From contig NZ_JAIQDG010000020.1 in the NCBI RefSeq assembly GCF_020037125.1, forward strand, positions 124,001-188,000: a DNA stretch of 64,000 bases. Reading direction: 5' to 3'. Positions within the stretch are counted from its first letter, which is position 1; the number at the start of each line of letters is the position of its first letter. The notes beneath the pieces were generated by a model. The model was given only the letters and a program-made list of their open reading frames with translations. It was not told the origin of the DNA and did not search any database. This DNA comes from Myxococcus sp. RHSTA-1-4 (lineage in GTDB: Bacteria > Myxococcota > Myxococcia > Myxococcales > Myxococcaceae). Both the position numbers and the translations under genes were made by a program. Positions 8,468-17,426 of the stretch are shown piece by piece.

Positions 8468-8584
8468 AGGTGGGTCCGGCCCCACTCTCACGGGCCCCCT
8501 GTCTCCTGCCCGGCCCCCAGGCGCGCGAGGCATGCCACCTTCGTTGTGACATCCCCGGACGTCGCGGGTAACCTCGCCGGCCTG

Positions 8585-9067
8585 ATGACCCCTGCAGCCC
8601 GGGCCGACATGGAGGCACGCGCCGACCGCGCCCTGCGCAGGGGCGAAATGGCGGAAGCACTCGGCCTCTACGAAGCGCTCGTCCGCGCCTTCCCGGAAGA
8701 CCCGGGGCTCGCCCTCAAGCTCGCCAACCTGCGCGACTCGCTCCAGCCCGCCGAGCTCCAGGCCCTCCAGGCCTCCCGCCCGACCCATGACGTCTCCCTC
8801 CCCCTGGGCCCCTCCTCACCCGCCCAGGAGGGTGAGCGCCTCTTCGCCCTCGGGGACTACGTCGGGGCCGCCGCCGCCTACCGCCGCGCCGTCCAGGAGC
8901 GCCCGGACAGCGAGCTGCTCAAGGAGCGGCTGATCGAGCTGTACCGCCTCGCCCGCGAGATGCCCCTACATTCTCCGACAGACAAGGCCCTCCCCAAGGA
9001 GGCCGAGCCCCGTCTCCAGGCGCTCCTCGACCGCGTCGCCTCGCGCCGCCGCCTCAAGCGCGATTGA
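8585..9067 (+). CDS. TPR-repeat protein
   Basis: This 160-residue soluble protein is built from tetratricopeptide-like helical pairs: one near residues 8-45 (EMAEALGLYEALVRAFPED) and one near 83-120 (GDYVGAAAAYRRAVQERPDS), separated by a Ser/Pro linker. TPRs mediate protein-protein contact; the partner is unknown. The ATG at 8585 lies 118 bases from the divergent gene's start. A longer frame upstream (from 8153) covers the opposite gene and is not coding. It ends 140 bases before the pfk start. Confidence 0.7.
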   Translation: MTPAARADMEARADRALRRGEMAEALGLYEALVRAFPEDPGLALKLANLRDSLQPAELQALQASRPTHDVSLPLGPSSPAQEGERLFALGDYVGAAAAYRRAVQERPDSELLKERLIELYRLAREMPLHSPTDKALPKEAEPRLQALLDRVASRRRLKRD

Positions 9068-9118
9068 CGGAAGGCCCTGTTTACACTCGGAAAACCGCCG
9101 CACCGGGTGATTCGCGCG

Positions 9119-9147
9119 TTGCACCCCCCAGGGGGGGCCCCTAGAAT
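9119..9147 (+). promoter_or_regulatory. Sigma-70-type promoter of the pfk-pkn4 unit
   Basis: TTGCAC (9119-9124) and TAGAAT (9142-9147) are separated by exactly 17 bases, a good housekeeping promoter, and would start transcription at about 9154, some 54 bases before pfk. The spacer is unusual: a C6-A-G7-C4 block that could form a hairpin or an altered helix. Confidence 0.6.
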
Positions 9148-9207
9148 CAGGTCCGACGTCGCTGTCATGGTTCAACCCCGCACCTCTGACACCTGCGTCC
9201 GACCCGT

Positions 9208-10305
9208 ATGCCCCGTTCCCTGCGACTCGGAGTCCTCACCGGTGGTGGTGACTGCCCGGGACTCAACGCGCTGATCCGTGGCCTCGTGAAGCGGGGCACG
9301 CACGAGTTCGGCCACGAGTTCGTCGGCATCGAGAACGGCTACATGGGTCTGGTCGAGCCCGGGCTCACCCACCCCCTCACGGAGGAGGACACGCGCGGCA
9401 TCCTCCCCAAGGGGGGGACCATCCTGGGCACCTCCAACAAGGCCAACCCCTTCGCCTACCCCTTCCGGGAGAACGGCCACTGGGTGGACCGGGACGTGTC
9501 CGACCAGGTGCTCCGCCGCTGCGAGGAGCTCAAGCTGGACGGGCTGGTCGCCGTCGGCGGTGACGGGACGCTGTCCATTGGCCACCGTCTGGCTTCCAGG
9601 GGTCTCAACGTCGTGGGCTGCCCGAAGACCATCGACAACGACCTCTCCGGCACGGACCAGACGTTCGGGTTCGACACCGCGCGCCTCATCGTCACGGAAG
9701 CGCTGGACCGGCTGCACTCCACCGCCGAGGCGCATGACCGCGTCATGGTGGTGGAGATCATGGGCCGCCACGCCGGCTTCCTCACGCTGGACAGCGGCAT
9801 CGCCGGCGGCGCGGACGTCATCCTCATCCCGGAGATTCCCTACCAAGTGGAGTCCATCGTGGAGAAGATCCACCGCCGCGCCACCCGCCGGCGCAGCTTC
9901 TCCATCATCGCCATCTCCGAGGGGGCGTACCCCGTGGGCGGCACGCTGGCCATCCAGGAGCAGGCCGGGGAGGTCCCCGGGCGCGGCGTGGTGCGGCTGG
10001 GCGGCTCCGGCCGGGTGTGCGCGGACCTGCTCGCGAAGCACGTGGACGCGGAGATTCGCGTCACCGTGCTGGGCCACCTGCAGCGCGGCGGCAGCCCTAG
10101 CGCGGCGGACCGGCTGCTGGCCACACGCTACGGGTGCAAGGTGTTGGATCTCGTGCGTGACGGGCAGTGGAACCATATGGTCGCGCTGCGCGCGGGGGAG
10201 ATTGTCGCGGTACCGTTGAGTGAGTCGCGCAAGGAGCGCCGGGTGGACCCATCCGGTGAGCTGGTGCGCTTCGCCAAGAGCATGGGCATCAGCTTCGGGG
10301 ACTGA
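9208..10305 (+). CDS. pfkA: 6-phosphofructokinase, Pkn4-regulated type
   Basis: Phosphorylates fructose 6-phosphate to fructose 1,6-bisphosphate in glycolysis (365 residues, cytoplasm). Visible motifs: N-terminal LTGGGDCPGLN for phosphoryl-donor binding, VGGDGT with Gly120, PKTIDND with Lys140 and catalytic Asp, and the MGRHAGF substrate loop. Gly120 (E. coli Gly104) marks an ATP user; Lys140 in place of the second Gly occurs in the group III enzymes of actinobacteria and myxobacteria, some ATP- and some pyrophosphate-dependent. Thr226 in RRATRRRS sits at the position reported to be phosphorylated by Pkn4 in Myxococcus xanthus, which activates the enzyme. It is 20 bases upstream of the kinase gene, so the two are surely co-transcribed. 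Confidence 0.95.
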   Translation: MPRSLRLGVLTGGGDCPGLNALIRGLVKRGTHEFGHEFVGIENGYMGLVEPGLTHPLTEEDTRGILPKGGTILGTSNKANPFAYPFRENGHWVDRDVSDQVLRRCEELKLDGLVAVGGDGTLSIGHRLASRGLNVVGCPKTIDNDLSGTDQTFGFDTARLIVTEALDRLHSTAEAHDRVMVVEIMGRHAGFLTLDSGIAGGADVILIPEIPYQVESIVEKIHRRATRRRSFSIIAISEGAYPVGGTLAIQEQAGEVPGRGVVRLGGSGRVCADLLAKHVDAEIRVTVLGHLQRGGSPSAADRLLATRYGCKVLDLVRDGQWNHMVALRAGEIVAVPLSESRKERRVDPSGELVRFAKSMGISFGD

Positions 10306-10325
10306 GGGGGAGGACGCCGCACGTC

Positions 10326-12320
10326 ATGACGCTCGTCGGCCGCCATATCGGTCGCTACCGCATCCTCGAGCAGCTCGGCTCGGGGGGCATGAGCGTCGTG
10401 TACAAGGGGCTCGACACGGCCCTGGACCGCGAGGTGGCGGTGAAGGTGCTGCACCCGCACCTGGCCGGCAAGGACGAGTCGCGGCGGCGGCTGGCCCGCG
10501 AGGCCCGCGCGGTGGCCAAGCTGCACCACCCCAACATCCTCGAGGTCTTCGACTTCTCCTCCGCGGACGCGCAGGACGCGTTCATCGTCACCGAGTACAT
10601 CCGCGGCCAGACGCTGAAGTCCTTCCTCGACGAGGGGCCCATGGACCCGCCGGAGCTGGCGGCCATGGTCATCCACGAGCTGGCGGCGGCGCTCGCCCAC
10701 GCCCACGAGGCCGGCGTCATCCACCGCGACCTCAAGCCGGAGAACGTCATGGTGCGCGAGGACGGAATCCTCAAGCTCATGGACTTCGGCATCGCGAAGC
10801 TGCTCGACATCGAGGAGCGGATGACCGTCACCGGCACGCTGGTGGGCTCGCCGGCCCACATGGCCCCGGAAATCATCGAGGGCCTGGAGGCCGGCCCCGA
10901 GGCGGATGTCTTCAGCGTGGGCATCATGTTCTACGCGGCGATGACGGGCCGGCTGCCCTTCAGCGCCACCAACACCACCGCCACGCTCAAGCGCATCCTC
11001 GACGGCGACTACGAGGACCCGCGCCGCCGCGTGCCCACGCTGTCCGACGAGCTGGCGGAGATCTGCGCCACCTGCCTCCAGCGCGAGCCCCAGCGCCGCT
11101 ACCCGGACGCCGCCAGGCTGCGCGACGCGCTCGCGGACTACCTCGCCGGCCTGGGCTTCGCGCGCGTGGGCGAGGAGCTGGTGTCCTTCTTCGCGGACCC
11201 CACCTCGTACCGGAAGCTCGCCCGCCAGCGCATCGTCGCCGCGCTGCTGGAGCGCAGCGAGCGGCTGCTCGCGGAGAAGCGCACCCCGCGCGCCCTGGCC
11301 AGCCTCAACCAGGTGCTCGCGCTGGACGCGACCAACGCCCGCGCGCTCGCGCTCCTCAAGGGCCTGCGGCGCGCCCAGCGCATCAAGACGTGGCGCCGCC
11401 GCGGCATTCGCGTGGGCATCGGCCTTGCCGCCGCCGCGCTGCTCGGCGTGGGCGGCTGGAAGGTGCGCCAGGCCGGCACGCGGCAGGACACGCCGGAGCA
11501 GACGGGCGACAGCGTGCCGGGCGGTACGGACCCGCGCACCACCCCACCGGGCTCCCAGGGCGAGCCACCGGCCCCGGGCGGCACGGTCGGGACGCCCGGC
11601 GTGCGGACCGACTCGACGACCGGCACCGGTGAGGGTGTCCCTTCACGGCCGCCCGTGGTGGCGCGGCCGCCGGACACGCTGGTGGCCGGCCTCGTGGCGG
11701 CGTCCGTCGACGAGGAGCGGCCGCCCCCGGGAAATCTCACGCCGCACCAGGGCTCCACTCCCGTCCCCGGAGCAGCGCCCAGGGGCAGCGGCTCACGCCA
11801 CGTGCCCGCCCCGCCGGTCGCGGAGCGGCTCCCCGATGACGCGTCCCGCAAGCCGCCGGTGCGCAAGGTGCCGGTGTCCATCCTGGTGCGGCCCTACGGC
11901 ATCATCCGGGTGGACGACGGCGCGCCCAGCGCCCAGCCGCTGCAGAAGCACGACGTGGAAGTCGTGCCGGGACGGCACAGCGTCACCATCTCCTGTGACT
12001 ACTGCGAGGACGTGGTGGACACCATCGACGTGCGCGGCAGCGGAGAGAACGTCTTCCACCTGCGCGCCCAGCCCAAGCCCGCGCTGCTCTCCTTCGAGTA
12101 CGAGCCGGCGGACGCCGTGGTGCGCGTGAACGGGCAGCAGCGCACCGTGCGCGAGAGCCTCCAGTCCCCCTTCGTGGTCCGCGCCCCGCGCGGCCCGGCG
12201 GGCTTCCAGCTCAGCGTCGAAGTGGAGCTCTCCCACCCCGGCTACAGGACGGAGCGGCGCAAGGTGCACCTGAATCCCGGCGAGCCCACCACCCTTCGCG
12301 GGAGCCTCCTCCCCGAATGA
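10326..12320 (+). CDS. pkn4: Membrane Ser/Thr protein kinase Pkn4-like
   Basis: A 664-residue eukaryotic-type kinase. The N-terminal catalytic domain (about 11-275) is intact: Gly loop GSGGMS, Lys40, HRDLKPEN (Asp135), DFG (153-155), and MAPE. A TPR-like stretch follows (residues 300-350), then one membrane helix (361-377), a long Pro/Gly/Thr-rich spacer (about 380-520), and a C-terminal outside domain with CDYC and a PEGA-like beta pattern (residues 535-660). Position next to pfk matches M. xanthus pkn4, whose product phosphorylates Pfk on Thr226. The stop overlaps the next start (ATGA). The external domain suggests it senses an envelope signal; this is inference. Confidence 0.92.
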   Translation: MTLVGRHIGRYRILEQLGSGGMSVVYKGLDTALDREVAVKVLHPHLAGKDESRRRLAREARAVAKLHHPNILEVFDFSSADAQDAFIVTEYIRGQTLKSFLDEGPMDPPELAAMVIHELAAALAHAHEAGVIHRDLKPENVMVREDGILKLMDFGIAKLLDIEERMTVTGTLVGSPAHMAPEIIEGLEAGPEADVFSVGIMFYAAMTGRLPFSATNTTATLKRILDGDYEDPRRRVPTLSDELAEICATCLQREPQRRYPDAARLRDALADYLAGLGFARVGEELVSFFADPTSYRKLARQRIVAALLERSERLLAEKRTPRALASLNQVLALDATNARALALLKGLRRAQRIKTWRRRGIRVGIGLAAAALLGVGGWKVRQAGTRQDTPEQTGDSVPGGTDPRTTPPGSQGEPPAPGGTVGTPGVRTDSTTGTGEGVPSRPPVVARPPDTLVAGLVAASVDEERPPPGNLTPHQGSTPVPGAAPRGSGSRHVPAPPVAERLPDDASRKPPVRKVPVSILVRPYGIIRVDDGAPSAQPLQKHDVEVVPGRHSVTISCDYCEDVVDTIDVRGSGENVFHLRAQPKPALLSFEYEPADAVVRVNGQQRTVRESLQSPFVVRAPRGPAGFQLSVEVELSHPGYRTERRKVHLNPGEPTTLRGSLLPE

Positions 12321-13300
12321 GCCGCGGACTCCTGCTCCTGCTGTGGACGCTGACCCTCGCGCCGGCCGCCGCCGGCGCCCAGGACTCCGGAGACCCGGAG
12401 GTGGCCGCGCTGCGCGCCAGCTTCGAGTACGGCAAGTACGCGGAGGTGCTGGACCGCGCGGGCGCCCGCATCGACCGCGGAGACCTGTCCGAGGACGACC
12501 TGGTGGAGCTGCACAAGCTGGCGGGCCTCGCCGCCTTCAACCTCGGCCGCACCGAGGACGCCACGCGCCACCTGCGCGCCCTGCTCCGGTTGGATCCGGA
12601 CTACGGCCTGGACCCCTTCGTCGTCCCGCCGCCCGCGGTGGCCTTCCTGGACTCGCTCAAGGTGGAGATGTCCAGCGAGCTGGAGTTCCTCCGCCAGGAG
12701 CGGCGGCTGCGCCAGGAGCGCGAGAAGGCCGCGGCCGAGCGCCGCGAGCGTGAGCGCCTGGAGGCCGAGGTGCAGCGCCGCCGCGCCGAGGAGATGGCCC
12801 GCCAGGTCACCGTGCGCACCGTGGAGAAGCGCAACTTCCTGGTCAACTTCGTCCCCTTCGGCGCCGGCCAGTTCCAGCAGGGCCGCAACAGCCTCGGCAT
12901 CGTCTTCGCCGCCACCGAGGGCGCGCTCGCGGTGACGAGCATCATCTCCTTCTTCGCCTACGAGTCGCTCTTCGAGGAGCAGACCGTCCTCATGGACAAC
13001 GTCCTGGACCCGGACGGCCAGGCCTCCATCCGCGTGCGCTACATCCCCACCAACCGGCGCAAGCAGCGGGACACCTGGCAGCTCCTCAAGCTGTCCTCGG
13101 CGGCGGGCTTCTACACCATCTACGCACTCGGCGTGGTGGACGCGCTGTACCACCACGAGGACCACGTCATCCGCACCACCGTGGAGCCCCGCCCCGACGC
13201 GCCCGCTCCAGCCTCCGCTCCGCCCGGCACCCTCTCGACGCGGGTGGGCCTCTACCGCACCTCCGGCGGGCTCGGCGCCGGCCTCACCCTCTTCTTCTGA
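12317..13300 (+). CDS. Exported TPR/coiled-coil membrane protein
   Basis: The 327-residue protein has a signal peptide (LLLLLWTLTLAPAAAGA), a TPR-like helical region (about 27-105), a charged coiled coil (about 118-165, QERRLRQEREKAAAERRE), then two probable membrane helices around residues 195-220 and 255-275, separated by a soluble loop. The NFVPFGAGQFQQGRN stretch before the first helix recurs in myxobacterial membrane proteins of unknown role. Its ATG overlaps the pkn4 stop, so it is translationally coupled to the kinase; it may scaffold the kinase in the envelope. Confidence 0.75.
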   Translation: MSRGLLLLLWTLTLAPAAAGAQDSGDPEVAALRASFEYGKYAEVLDRAGARIDRGDLSEDDLVELHKLAGLAAFNLGRTEDATRHLRALLRLDPDYGLDPFVVPPPAVAFLDSLKVEMSSELEFLRQERRLRQEREKAAAERRERERLEAEVQRRRAEEMARQVTVRTVEKRNFLVNFVPFGAGQFQQGRNSLGIVFAATEGALAVTSIISFFAYESLFEEQTVLMDNVLDPDGQASIRVRYIPTNRRKQRDTWQLLKLSSAAGFYTIYALGVVDALYHHEDHVIRTTVEPRPDAPAPASAPPGTLSTRVGLYRTSGGLGAGLTLFF

Positions 13301-13325
13301 GCCTCTCCACCCGATACGAGAATCC

Positions 13326-15221
13326 ATGGCCAGCCTCACCGTCCGCTCTCCCGATGGAAAGGTCCGCTCGGTCTCCCTGCACAAGCGCATCACCAGCATC
13401 GGCCGGGGGCCGGACAACGACGTGCAGCTCGAGGACCCGGGCGTGCCCGACAGCGCCCTGCACGTCACCTTCGACGGCAGCCGCTACGAGGTCGGCAGCC
13501 TGGGCGCCACCTTCCAGGTCAACGGCAAGAGGCGCGACGCCCATGCGCTGTCCACCGGAGACGTGGTCCGCGTCGGCGCCACCGAGCTCGTCTTCGCTCG
13601 CGAGGACGCCCCCCGCGCCCCGCCCCCGCCGCCCTCCACTCCGCCCCGCGAGGTGATGCGCACCTCCAACCCGGACTCGCACACCGCGGAATTGCCCGGC
13701 GTGCCCGGCCGCGAGCTGCTCCTGCTGCGCCGGCTCACCGCCTTCAGCGAGCGGCTGCTGGGCCTCTACGACGTGGAGCGCATCCTGGAGAGCCTCATGG
13801 ACGAGGCCATCGAGGTGACTCGCGCGGACAAGGGCTTCCTCATCCTCATGGAGAGCGGCGAGCCTCGCGTGAAGGTGGCGCGCAACGTGTCCCGGGAGAA
13901 CATCGAGGACGCGGTGGAGAAGGACAAGATCTCCGACTCCATCATCGCCAAGGTGGTGAAGGAGCAGAAGCCGCTCATCGTCGCGGACGCGCTCGACTCG
14001 CCGGAGTTCAACAAGAGCGAGTCGGTGGTCAACCTCCGCGTCCACTCCGTCATGTGCGTGCCGCTCATGCACAAGGGGGACCTGTTCGGCGTCATCTACG
14101 TGGGCAACGACAGGCTGGTGAACCGGTTCGAGCCCAAGAGCGCGGACATGCTCACCATCTTCGCGGCGCAGGCGTCCCTCATCCTGCAGAACGCGATGCT
14201 GGTGAACGACCTCAAGCTGGACAACACGGAGCTGCGCCGGAAGCTGGAGGACCAGCGCTACGGCGACATCGTGGGCGCCTGCCAGGGCATGCGCGACGTG
14301 TACAAGCGCATCGACAAGATTGCCCCCACGGACATCTCCGTCCTCATCACCGGCGAGACGGGCACCGGCAAGGAGCTCATCGCCCGCGAAATCCACCGCC
14401 GCTCCCCGCGCGCCAAGGGGCCCTTCATCACCATCAACTGCGGCGCCATTCCGGAGAACCTCCTGGAGAGCGAGCTGTTCGGCCACGTGAAGGGCGCCTT
14501 CACCGGCGCGGTGGCCACCAAGGCCGGCAAGTTCCAGGCGGCCATCGGCGGCACGCTCTTCCTGGACGAGATTGGCGAGATGCCCCTGCAGCTCCAGGTG
14601 AAGCTGTTGCGCGCCCTCCAGGAGAAGATTGTCTACAAGGTGGGCGACAACCGCGGCGAGCCGGTGGACATCCGCGTGGTGGCCGCCACCAACAAGGTGC
14701 TCGAGGACGAGGTGAAGAAGAACACCTTCCGCGAGGACCTCTACTACCGCCTCAACGTCGTCACCCTGAAGCTGCCCCCCCTGCGCGAGCGCGGCGAGGA
14801 CGTGGTGGTGCTGGGCCGCTTCTTCCTCCAGAAGTACGCCCGCGAGTTCAACTCCAAGGCCCGGGGCTTCACCCCCTCCGCCACCGTCTCCATGCGGAAG
14901 TACGGCTGGCCTGGAAACATCCGCGAATTGGAGAACCGCCTGAAGAAGGCGGTGGTGCTCGCGGACAAGCCGCTGCTGGGTCCGGACGACCTGGACCTCA
15001 AGCCGGAGAACCTGGAGCCCATCATGCCGCTGCTCCAGGCCAAGGAAGAATTCCAGAAGCGTTACATCAACGAGGTGCTGGCCCGGAACAACGGCAACCG
15101 GACCAAGACAGCCAAGGACCTGGGCGTGGACCCGCGCACCATCTTCCGCCACCTGGAAAAGCTGGAGGCGGAGAAGTCGGGCCGGCCCCTGCCTCCCGAG
15201 GAGGGAGACGAGCTGCTCTGA
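13326..15221 (+). CDS. Sigma-54-dependent activator with FHA and GAF domains
   Basis: A 631-residue enhancer-binding protein: FHA domain (about 1-95), Pro-rich linker, GAF domain (about 140-290), AAA+ ATPase (about 315-545) and a C-terminal Fis-type helix-turn-helix (TKTAKDLGVDPRTIFRHL). The ATPase has Walker A GETGTGKE, the GAFTGA loop that contacts sigma-54, and Walker B FLDEIGEM, so it should activate transcription. In the FHA part the Arg and S-x-x-H residues are present but the GS-x-N-G loop is shortened (SLGATFQVNG), so phosphopeptide binding may differ. It follows pkn4 in the same probable operon, suggesting it reads a phosphorylation state set by that kinase; this link is inference. 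Confidence 0.9.
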   Translation: MASLTVRSPDGKVRSVSLHKRITSIGRGPDNDVQLEDPGVPDSALHVTFDGSRYEVGSLGATFQVNGKRRDAHALSTGDVVRVGATELVFAREDAPRAPPPPPSTPPREVMRTSNPDSHTAELPGVPGRELLLLRRLTAFSERLLGLYDVERILESLMDEAIEVTRADKGFLILMESGEPRVKVARNVSRENIEDAVEKDKISDSIIAKVVKEQKPLIVADALDSPEFNKSESVVNLRVHSVMCVPLMHKGDLFGVIYVGNDRLVNRFEPKSADMLTIFAAQASLILQNAMLVNDLKLDNTELRRKLEDQRYGDIVGACQGMRDVYKRIDKIAPTDISVLITGETGTGKELIAREIHRRSPRAKGPFITINCGAIPENLLESELFGHVKGAFTGAVATKAGKFQAAIGGTLFLDEIGEMPLQLQVKLLRALQEKIVYKVGDNRGEPVDIRVVAATNKVLEDEVKKNTFREDLYYRLNVVTLKLPPLRERGEDVVVLGRFFLQKYAREFNSKARGFTPSATVSMRKYGWPGNIRELENRLKKAVVLADKPLLGPDDLDLKPENLEPIMPLLQAKEEFQKRYINEVLARNNGNRTKTAKDLGVDPRTIFRHLEKLEAEKSGRPLPPEEGDELL

Positions 15222-15243
15222 GCGGGCGGCCCGCGCACGGACG

Positions 15244-15804
15244 ATGGAAGGCACGACTCGGCGATACGGATGGTCGGCGCTGGTGGTGGCGGCCTGCGCG
15301 GCGACGGGCTGCCTCATCCCCCAGGACGACACGCTGCTGGAGGGCGTGCCCGGGCAGAGGAACCGGCCGCCCCGCATCGTGGAGAGCCTGGTGTCGCCCC
15401 AGCAGCGCGTCATCTCCGACTTCGGCGCCGGCGCGTGTGACCTCACCTTCGAGGTCGTCGCCGAGGACCCCGACCTGGATGACCGCCTCAAGGTGCACTG
15501 GTACGTGGACTACAACCCACAGGACCCGCGGGGCCCCTACCGGCAGTACGACCTGGCCAACATCACCCGGGACCCGCTGCGCTCGGACCGGGGCTCGCTG
15601 CTCATCAGCCTCGCGTCCGCCAACAGCCCGCTGGGCACGCCGGGCACGCACCTGGTGGAGGCGCTGGTCAGCGACTCGGAGCTGCAGGACCGGGTGGTGC
15701 AGCCGCGGGTGGTGCAGCTTCCCGACGGCACCTTCATCGAGGACCCGGGCTACGTCGTCACGTACGCCTGGGTGGTGAACACCGTGCAGGGGGACTGCCG
15801 GTGA
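15244..15804 (+). CDS. Lipoprotein, unknown function
   Basis: A 186-residue protein with a signal peptide and a lipobox (AATGC, Cys at about 22). The mature part is beta-rich, with the EVVAEDPDLDDRLKVHWYVD stretch typical of Ig/cadherin-like extracellular folds, and one late Cys (GDC). The start lies 22 bases after the sigma-54 activator and its stop overlaps the next start (GTGA), so it belongs to the pfk-pkn4 unit. Function unknown. Confidence 0.75.
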   Translation: MEGTTRRYGWSALVVAACAATGCLIPQDDTLLEGVPGQRNRPPRIVESLVSPQQRVISDFGAGACDLTFEVVAEDPDLDDRLKVHWYVDYNPQDPRGPYRQYDLANITRDPLRSDRGSLLISLASANSPLGTPGTHLVEALVSDSELQDRVVQPRVVQLPDGTFIEDPGYVVTYAWVVNTVQGDCR

Positions 15805-17426
15805 CGCCGCGCCGCGCGCCGCTCGTCCCCGCGCTGGCGCTGCTGGCGGTGCTCGCGGGCACCGGGTGCGCCCTGCTGGAGGAGGAGCCGGACCCGAGCC
15901 AGCTCGTGTGCCGCTCGGATGCCGAGTGCGGCCCGAACGAGGTGTGTTTCCCGGACGGGTGTGGAGACCCGGGCCGGGACATCGTCGTGGAGGTGACGCC
16001 CAACCCCCACGACGGCATGCACGCGCAGGACTTCCGCGTGGACCCGGTGCGGCCGGAGCTGGACCTGGAGCTCCTCGAGCCCGCCCGGGTGGCGGGCCGG
16101 GTGGTGCGCGCCACGTCGTTGCCGGCCCCGGATGGGGGCACCACCACGCGTCCCTACTCGGAGCCCCTCCACCTGCGCGCCGACGGCGAGAGCCTCCTGC
16201 TGCCCGGCGTGACGCGCCGGTACGAGGCGGAGCTGGTGCCCATCAACGGCGCGTGGGAGCTGCCCGTGGGCACCGGCGAGTACGCGGTGACGCTGACGGC
16301 CGGCGACCTCGAGGTGCCGCCGGTGCGGGGCACCAGCCACGTGGAGCCCGGCGCCCGGGTGCCGCTGGAGCTGGTGCTGCCCGCCCCGGACACGGTGGTG
16401 CGGCTGAGCGGCCGGGTGGTGCGCCAGGGCGAGCTGCTGGTGGACGCGGACCTGCGGATTCAAGCGCTGGACGCGGACCTGTCGCCCCTGTCCCAGCGTG
16501 TGCCGGTGATGCGCGGCTCGGGTGACTTCACGCTCGTCATGCCCCGGGAGGCGGCACGGCGCTCCGCCATCCTGCTGCGGGTGACGGCCCTGGGCGAGGC
16601 GCCCTGGGTTCCGCAGAAGACCTTCACGGTGGACCCGCGCGCGCCGCTCACCTCGCCGCTGGAGCTGGGGGAGTATGGCGAGCCGGTGCGGGTGTCGGGC
16701 CGGGTGGTGGGCCTGGACGGCAGGCCGGTGGCGGGCGCCACCGTGGCGCTGCGCGGGCAGGTGGGCGGCGGCGGCCTGTTCCATGGCCCGCTGGCGACCA
16801 CCACCCTGGAGGGGCGCTTCACGGTGGACACCCTGCCGGCGGCTCCGGGCGGCACGCTCTCCCTGGTGGTGGTGCCGCCCCTGGGTGTCACCGCGGGCCT
16901 CATCGTGCAGCCGGTGGAGGTGCCGCGCACCGGCGCCGTGTTGCCGGACGTCGTCTGTCCCGACCGGCGCGTCGTCATGGGCACCCTCCACCTGCCCGGC
17001 AGCACCGAGCCGGCGCGCGGCGTGCGCGTGGCGGTGGAGCCCATCGCCGAGGTGCCCGGCTGGCCCCGTCCGCCCGGCGGTGGCGAGGCGCTGGTCGCCA
17101 CCGACGACGAAGGCACCTGGCGGCTGCGGTTGGACCCCGCCGTCTACCGCGTGGACTTCCTCCCGGCGGAGAACCTCCCGCGCATCAGCCGCGTCATCAC
17201 CGTGCTGCCCGGCGAGGACGCCACCGTGCAGGAGCTGGCGACCTTCAACCTGCAGCGCGGCCGCACCCTCACCGGCCGGGTGACGGACGGCACGCGGACC
17301 CTGCCCTATGCCTCCATCCGCTTCTACCGGGTGGGGACGCTGGAGGGCCGCCCCTCGTCCGTGCTGCTGTCCCAGACGGTGTCGGACCACCAGGGCCGCT
17401 ACACGGCGCTGATGCCGGTGCGCTGA
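15801..17426 (+). CDS. Surface lipoprotein with carboxypeptidase-regulatory-like repeats
   Basis: The 541-residue product has a signal peptide with lipobox (GTGC, Cys at about 23), a Cys-rich neck (CRSDAECGPNEVC, then DGCG) and then four or five beta-sandwich modules of the carboxypeptidase-regulatory/transthyretin type. The module signature is seen in VSGRVVGLDGRPVAGATV and in LTGRVTDGTRTLPYASI. Such modules are structural or adhesive. Start is GTG, coupled to the upstream lipoprotein. Similar in plan to the larger lipoprotein at 26.4-29.0 kb. Its stop is only one base from the converging gene's stop. Confidence 0.8.
   Translation: MTPRRAPLVPALALLAVLAGTGCALLEEEPDPSQLVCRSDAECGPNEVCFPDGCGDPGRDIVVEVTPNPHDGMHAQDFRVDPVRPELDLELLEPARVAGRVVRATSLPAPDGGTTTRPYSEPLHLRADGESLLLPGVTRRYEAELVPINGAWELPVGTGEYAVTLTAGDLEVPPVRGTSHVEPGARVPLELVLPAPDTVVRLSGRVVRQGELLVDADLRIQALDADLSPLSQRVPVMRGSGDFTLVMPREAARRSAILLRVTALGEAPWVPQKTFTVDPRAPLTSPLELGEYGEPVRVSGRVVGLDGRPVAGATVALRGQVGGGGLFHGPLATTTLEGRFTVDTLPAAPGGTLSLVVVPPLGVTAGLIVQPVEVPRTGAVLPDVVCPDRRVVMGTLHLPGSTEPARGVRVAVEPIAEVPGWPRPPGGGEALVATDDEGTWRLRLDPAVYRVDFLPAENLPRISRVITVLPGEDATVQELATFNLQRGRTLTGRVTDGTRTLPYASIRFYRVGTLEGRPSSVLLSQTVSDHQGRYTALMPVR

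Follow-up and report, generated by a model that had tools for sequence, protein, structure and literature searches.

The pfk-pkn4 pair of Myxococcus xanthus is a textbook example in which the gene of a bacterial protein kinase lies beside that of its metabolic substrate, phosphofructokinase (PFK; Pfk for the product of this gene), and its operon was reportedly studied by Nariya and Inouye in 2002, 2003 and 2005. Phosphorylation by Pkn4 is said to raise the activity of M. xanthus Pfk, and the site is reportedly Thr226. Here we consider the corresponding genes in a 64-kb stretch of contig NZ_JAIQDG010000020.1 from Myxococcus sp. RHSTA-1-4 (the window), together with the two genes that follow them and their counterparts in related genomes.

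The linkage of pfk and pkn4 and its conservation are already published: the two genes form an operon, described as the sole kinase region that is syntenic when seven myxobacteria are compared (PMC2887360). Genes 4016 (Pfk1) and 4017 (Pkn4) are tabulated under fruiting body development in PMC2129111, and the phosphorylation of PfkA by Pkn4 is cited in PMC6791715. A review table lists Pfk as a Pkn4 substrate, and the passages concerned name no residue (PMC6213207); those of PMC1262709 and PMC3427377 cite the M. xanthus work and say nothing further of it. No description of pfk loss with pkn4 retained, or of a pairing of pkn4 with an FHA activator, was found in the literature searched, which was mainly openly accessible (most subscription journals lie outside it).

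To judge from orthology through congeners, the window unit is the known M. xanthus operon in a relative. It resembles MXAN_4016-4017 in gene order and in genus-level orthology of both Pfk and Pkn4; it differs in that the match runs through genus members and named congeners, and that the operon of the window is known from sequence alone. The genome falls within the Myxococcus/Pyxidicoccus group, its nearest named relative being Pyxidicoccus fallax (Pfk 94%, kinase domain 99%). Kinase-FHA effector pairs of bacteria, for example mycobacterial kinases and FHA regulators, are similar in that a Hanks kinase has an FHA protein as a frequent neighbour; the FHA protein of the window differs in being a GAF-sigma54 activator. 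The initial annotation described a pfk-pkn4 unit, which is correct (the genes share a strand, and the gap from the pfk stop to the pkn4 ATG is 20 nucleotides, nt), and took this linkage as strong support for a conserved glycolytic control. The unit is a well-founded member of the known operon, its residue is correct and its promoter is real; the generalisation to conserved control is too strong. The features concerned are as follows.

9119 to 9147, + strand: promoter core TTGCAC-17-TAGAAT of the operon (exact sequence; core pattern conserved in leaders)
9151 to 9203, + strand: inverted repeat, probably a protein-binding dyad, with arms at 9151-9167 and 9187-9203 and a 19-nt centre; GTCCGACGTCGCTGTCA ... 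TGACACCTGCGTCCGAC
9208 to 10305, + strand: pfk, 6-phosphofructokinase, 365 amino acids (aa), TIGR02483 PFK_mixed, PF00365
9883 to 9885, + strand: Thr226 codon (ACC), placed by in-frame count; aligns with E. coli PfkA Ala210 (Met not counted)
10326 to 12320, + strand: pkn4, Hanks-type Ser/Thr kinase with a C-terminal PEGA-like region, 664 aa, PF00069 at E 1.8e-55
12317 to 13300, + strand: gene of a TPR protein, hydrophobic at its N terminus and in two more stretches, overlapping the stop codon of pkn4; the TPR match falls below the Pfam cut-off
13326 to 15221, + strand: FHA-GAF-sigma54 activator (enhancer-binding protein) with a Fis-type helix-turn-helix domain, found near pkn4 in most relatives; PF00498, PF01590, PF00158, PF02954

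Thr226 of Pfk

Counted from the ATG at 9208, which is the earliest ATG, GTG or TTG in the pfk frame (an in-frame stop lies 21 nt upstream), residue 226 is Thr within HRRATRRRSFS, and the initial annotation placed it correctly in RRATRRRS. The protein scores 461.2 bits against TIGR02483, above the cut-off of 430.55; its PDB matches confirm membership of the PFK family and no more. In 27 of 27 genus members the Pfk match spans 1095 nt and residues 1-365, that is, with no net indel.

Thr226 stands directly before R227-R228-R229, the equivalents of K211-G212-K213 in E. coli PfkA, a loop that contacts the phosphate of the allosteric effector; the alignment of the two proteins is gap-free around residue 226 (position 178 being the equivalent of R162). 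The PFK_mixed protein and E. coli PfkA have in common the basic residues at the places of R21 and R25, which are basic in 74/74 Pfks, and 63/74 have R or K at the place of K213. They differ at the places of R54, D59, R154 and E187, effector-site residues of PfkA that are E59, G64, H170 and D203 in the window Pfk and are not kept identical among the 74. A phosphate on Thr226 would be a sensible way to alter the allostery of the enzyme.

Within the genus of the window Thr226 is kept in 26 of 27 genomes (the exception, G001, has Ile), and in the three related genera g1, g5 and g6 it is kept in 42 of 43 species. At E <= 1e-110 this pfk was found in 69 of 96 family genomes, and pkn4 adjoins it in 66, counting G034 and G067, though only the pkn4 start was read there before the contig end. 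Thr226 is kept in 47 of these 66, and 42 of the 47 belong to g1, g5 and g6; in the remaining 19 the residue is E (7), A (4), R (3), I (2), V, Q or K (1 each) in spite of the adjacent pkn4. Five distant pfk-kinase blocks have K, E, A, A and L at this place, and since Thr occurs in 0/5 of them the pfk linkage is probably older than Thr226. Conversely, three g23 genomes (G086, G084, G085) keep Thr226 without an adjacent pkn4, TPR gene or activator; a kinase-domain search at E <= 1e-88 gave no pkn4 ortholog in them, and each has 22-28 other kinase-domain matches. Their Pfk loci (L165-L167, at 2.1-2.7 Mb) present a different gene context. The view that linkage is strong evidence for a conserved glycolytic control is thus not borne out by these replacements, by the distant blocks or by the g23 genomes, nor by the pfk-less blocks described below; such control would hold only locally, in g1, g5 and g6.

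On a Pfk tree of 74 rows the alternation of Thr and not-Thr requires at least 6 changes, and all states together 12. Among the 43 rows of g1, g5 and g6 site 226 changes once, while 10 of the 13 residues 213-225 (213, 215-219, 221-223 and 225) change 3-7 times and sites 228-233 are unchanged. However, 272 of 365 Pfk sites change at most once in these genera, so that the single change at 226 is, taken alone, weak evidence. Thr226 may thus be constrained in the clade of the published work; outside that clade it looks free.

At the 13 PFK paralog loci that were read, two of them from the window's own genome, Thr at 226 was found in none (L259 has Ser). The two in question are further phosphofructokinases, L108 on contig C49 and L111 on contig C43, which have Arg and Ala in place of Thr226.

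A separate observation concerns BNCN01000004.1 (L008), titled Comamonas sp. KCTC 72670, whose pfk-pkn4 block resembles that of Myxococcus (87% for Pfk, 95% for the kinase domain); the record is probably mislabelled.

The kinase with and without pfk

This pfk is absent from several lineages. Within the family, 19 readable blocks lack it, and all 19 retain pkn4 together with the TPR gene and the activator. A block was taken as readable and pfk-less when at least 3.6 kb was read upstream of pkn4 and the genome had no match to pfk at E <= 1e-110; the 19 were located through the activator, which is therefore there by choice. G048, G057 and G088, whose contigs start within the block, stand outside the 19, and the family genomes G074, G076, G082 and G083 stand outside the locus comparison. 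All 19 pfk-less genomes carry another PFK-family gene.

Between the promoter and pkn4 of G062-G065 (L193-L196 being G065, G063, G064 and G062) there is a decayed N-terminal pfk start, with local scores of 97, 99, 65 and 68 for G062-G065 against 100-shuffle maxima of 35, 46, 34 and 38; this shows that pfk was deleted in that group. The remnant in G027 is borderline, with a score of 40 where the highest of 100 shuffles reached 39, and no clear N-terminal remnant was seen in the remaining 12 pfk-less leaders of this test. C-terminal remnants were considered for the pfk-less leaders and dismissed as not distinct from shuffles. Because no clear remnant is present in them, loss of pfk in the other leaders rests on the tree. 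On the kinase tree of 121 rows, which was made by a quick method with SH-aLRT (approximate likelihood ratio test) support only and has many open forks, pfk presence changes at least 9 times (6 among the 84 family rows), and the well-supported branches alone force 5 changes; G067b, a second contig of the pfk-bearing G067, was labelled as pfk-bearing by hand.

Farther away, the DNA ahead of the kinase could be read in 33 order or phylum blocks, and pfk was found in 1 of them. The blocks came from 40 stretches (one being the family genome G072) chosen by hand among the activator matches listed, G116 and G164 (kinase at contig end), G132, G118 and G072 (contig too short) and G106 and G188 (no kinase) being left out; four further pfk-bearing blocks were taken because of their pfk. 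Since blocks were fetched by pfk or activator, the frequencies outside the family are biased and only their direction is safe.

A count anchored on the kinase is fairer than blocks chosen by activator or pfk. By kinase-domain search (E <= 1e-88) a pkn4 ortholog is present in 134 of 195 phylum genomes. Of the 46 orthologs outside the family, 33 have the activator on their own contig and strand, 1.8-2.6 kb downstream, and 8 have it on another contig or strand; for 5 its place was not among the matches listed. Phage relatives of the kinase amount to 35 records, all below 60% identity.

In the window the Hanks domain covers residues 11-259 of Pkn4 and has the residues of an active kinase (K40, H133-R134-D135, D153-F154-G155), and the PEGA match is at 20.5 bits, slightly under the cut-off of 20.8. 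The catalytic K, HRD and DFG are present in every readable kinase, both in the 69 rows with pfk (68 at the last two) and in the 20 rows without it; one of these 20 is the second contig from a genome that does bear pfk. Most FHA residues of the activator are canonical as well. The canonical motif consists of Gly-Arg, Ser-x-x-His and Asn, and in the window these phosphothreonine-binding places are filled by G26, R27, S43, H46 and N66; in rows with pfk Gly and Asn are kept in 60/60 and Arg in 53/60, and in rows without pfk on the stretch read (the 19 blocks that lack it, three more at contig edges, and G067b) Arg is kept in 23/23 and Asn in 22/23. As pkn4, the TPR gene and the activator persist in the pfk-less blocks, the conserved unit is probably the kinase, TPR protein and FHA activator, with pfk as a dispensable member.

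Promoter and dyad of the leader

The initial annotation proposed a TTGCAC-17-TAGAAT promoter 60 bases upstream of pfk, and its coordinates are right: TTGCAC occupies 9119-9124 and TAGAAT 9142-9147, the spacer CCCCCAGGGGGGGCCCC is exactly 17 nt long, and 60 nt separate the -10 end from the pfk ATG. The hexamers match TTGACA/TATAAT at 8 of 12 positions, and a scan needing 9/12 gave 0 sites in 8500-16000; lying below this threshold, the promoter is weak if judged by sequence alone. The pattern TTGC..-16/18-TAnnnT is nonetheless present in 47/47 pfk-bearing leaders (about 180 nt each) of five genera (g1, g5, g6, g8, g9); as a background, 150 of 10,533 stretches of 183 nt from these blocks, with the leaders counted in, contain it. 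It is found as well in 16/16 pfk-less leaders of g2, g3, g7, g8 and g20, searched over about 330 nt. Elsewhere the counts are 0/16 in g10, g13, g17, g19, g21, g23, g24 and g26, 0/6 in g4, 2/2 in g11 and g18, and 1/5 in outgroups. The 47 aligned leaders share GCGTTGC[AG] and CCTA..AT, the spacer being variable. The predicted promoter is therefore well supported by conservation; the C/G block of the spacer, which had been named as one of its features, varies in sequence among leaders and falls outside the conserved part. A sigma54 promoter was considered, as TTGCA resembles a -12 box, and rejected: the -24 GG is missing, and by eye its place is not conserved in the aligned leaders.

Downstream of the promoter lies the dyad, whose arms are kept across relatives while its centre varies, with 18-20 nt between TGTCA and TGACA. 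In the form TGTCA-N18-20-TGACA, with further matching flanks, it is present in all 47 pfk-bearing leaders of the same five genera and in 15 of the 16 pfk-less leaders, there ahead of pkn4; in this form it occurs in 0/16 of the eight groups just listed, in 1/6 of g4, in 2/2 of g11 and g18 and in 0/5 outgroups. The 24 dyad leaders that were aligned had been chosen from TGTCA-N16-20-TGACA matches, so both cores are invariant by choice, which is not the case for the flanking GAC and CG. Since promoter and dyad also precede pkn4 in pfk-less leaders, the regulatory region in these genera is that of the kinase operon rather than one specific to pfk.

A protein-binding site in DNA is more likely for the dyad than an RNA hairpin, as the variable positions of the arms do not compensate: one pair has a two-sided change (481 of 500 shuffles are as high), and 83.6% of cells are paired against 83.5% in shuffles. 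An RNA leader hairpin was accordingly rejected; the fold of 9151-9230 has z -1.47, with 21 of 200 shuffles as good, and no Rfam match was found in 8500-12700 at E <= 0.1. TGTCATN16-18TGACA has 4 places in the genome, among which the window dyad alone lies outside open frames of at least 100 codons. No dyad regulon was seen in the genome, the stricter pattern having one place and the looser 4, three of them inside open frames. The published MrpC consensus is TGTYN8RAC (PMC4320627), and an MrpC site was rejected for the dyad on comparison with that consensus, whose centre is shorter (no MrpC scan was made).

Two neighbouring observations may be recorded. The leaders upstream of pfk at L173 (g26) and L175 (g4) lack a window-type promoter and show, by eye, several TGTCA/TGACG elements in another arrangement. 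Upstream of the window promoter there is a TPR-like open reading frame, whose frame ends at 9067; family members often have it as a neighbour, including those without pfk.

Proposed pathway and its alternatives

We believe, with a probability of roughly 0.6, that the locus is the orthologue of the M. xanthus operon extended to pfk, pkn4, the TPR gene and the FHA/sigma54 activator, in which the PFK branch is accessory and the kinase-TPR-activator pathway, whose components are shared across the phylum, is older. The four genes, on one strand behind one sigma70-like promoter (9119-9147), would be carried by a single mRNA. An envelope signal would be sensed by the TPR protein and the C-terminal region of Pkn4, for both of which a membrane topology is presumed, and would activate the kinase; a phosphothreonine would then be read by the FHA domain of the activator and lead to sigma54-dependent transcription. 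As the accessory output, Pkn4 would most likely phosphorylate Thr226 of Pfk, beside the effector-phosphate loop, and raise its activity. It is tempting to go further and propose that Pkn4 is not chiefly a kinase of glycolysis and belongs to an ancient TPR-Pkn4-FHA/sigma54 module, that pfk is an old passenger whose repeated loss spares the promoter and the kinase, that Thr226 is a local trait kept best in the Myxococcus-Corallococcus clade, and that the dyad is an operator for the operon's own activator or for another factor; this combination is tentative, and we hold it at somewhat less than even odds.

Several observations weigh against the four-gene operon and pathway proposed first. Site 226 changes 10 times among the 66 rows with an adjacent kinase, where the median site changes 2 times, and 43 of 365 sites change as often or more. 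The hydrophobic segment of Pkn4 is weak (Kyte-Doolittle 1.48 over 19 residues), which leaves its placement in the membrane uncertain. Blocks of the family and of the order or phylum were picked by activator or pfk matches, which favours the presence of these genes, and 2 of the 40 activator-chosen blocks (G106, G188) are readable and have no kinase. Among the 60 rows with pfk, the place of the FHA Ser holds S in 38, T in 15 and N in 7, and His is kept in 47; the phosphothreonine site is therefore not uniformly canonical.

Pkn4 might instead be a dedicated PFK kinase family-wide, with Ser230 of the same loop replacing a lost Thr226 and glycolytic control thereby conserved. Position 230 is S in 58/74 Pfks, among them the T226-less G001, G066, G068, G070, G071, G075 and G087; it is preceded by basic residues and changes 3 times where 226 changes 10. 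However, it is K in 12/74, including g4 and g26 with adjacent pkn4, Ser stands at the same place in PFK paralogs such as L252, L259, L251 and L269, and pkn4 is retained in blocks that lack pfk; we regard this explanation as quite unlikely. Substitution of Thr226 by Glu, as in g4, G075 and G162, could be thought to lock the enzyme in a phosphorylated-like, active state, and Glu is indeed found in 8/74 Pfks, including all 6 g4 genomes; with A, I, V, R, K and Q at 226 in other lineages with adjacent pkn4 there is no general acidic replacement, and this proposal seems very improbable to us.

The opposite view, that Thr226 and the linkage are incidental, would have pfk simply use the same promoter and Pkn4 act on Pfk in vitro or in M. 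xanthus only. The lack of Thr in the distant pfk-kinase blocks agrees with it, as does the persistence of Thr226 without pkn4 in 3/3 g23 genomes, where, on the other hand, another kinase may act, given the many kinase-domain matches there. Against it stand the near-constancy of 226 amid variable neighbours in g1, g5 and g6, and the part in sporulation that M. xanthus Pfk, once activated by Pkn4, is reported to play (so the title of the 2003 paper by Nariya and Inouye, which PMC6791715 cites). On balance we consider it unlikely, and return to the four-gene operon with an accessory PFK branch.

On that reading, the comparison suggests that co-location of a kinase with its substrate is a poor guide to conserved output, because many relatives miss the substrate gene or the phosphosite while the kinase and its FHA activator stay. 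A direct test is possible, as some species naturally have pfk and Thr226 and others do not. The comparison also points to a candidate transcription factor, one that would read phosphothreonine, as the main partner of Pkn4.

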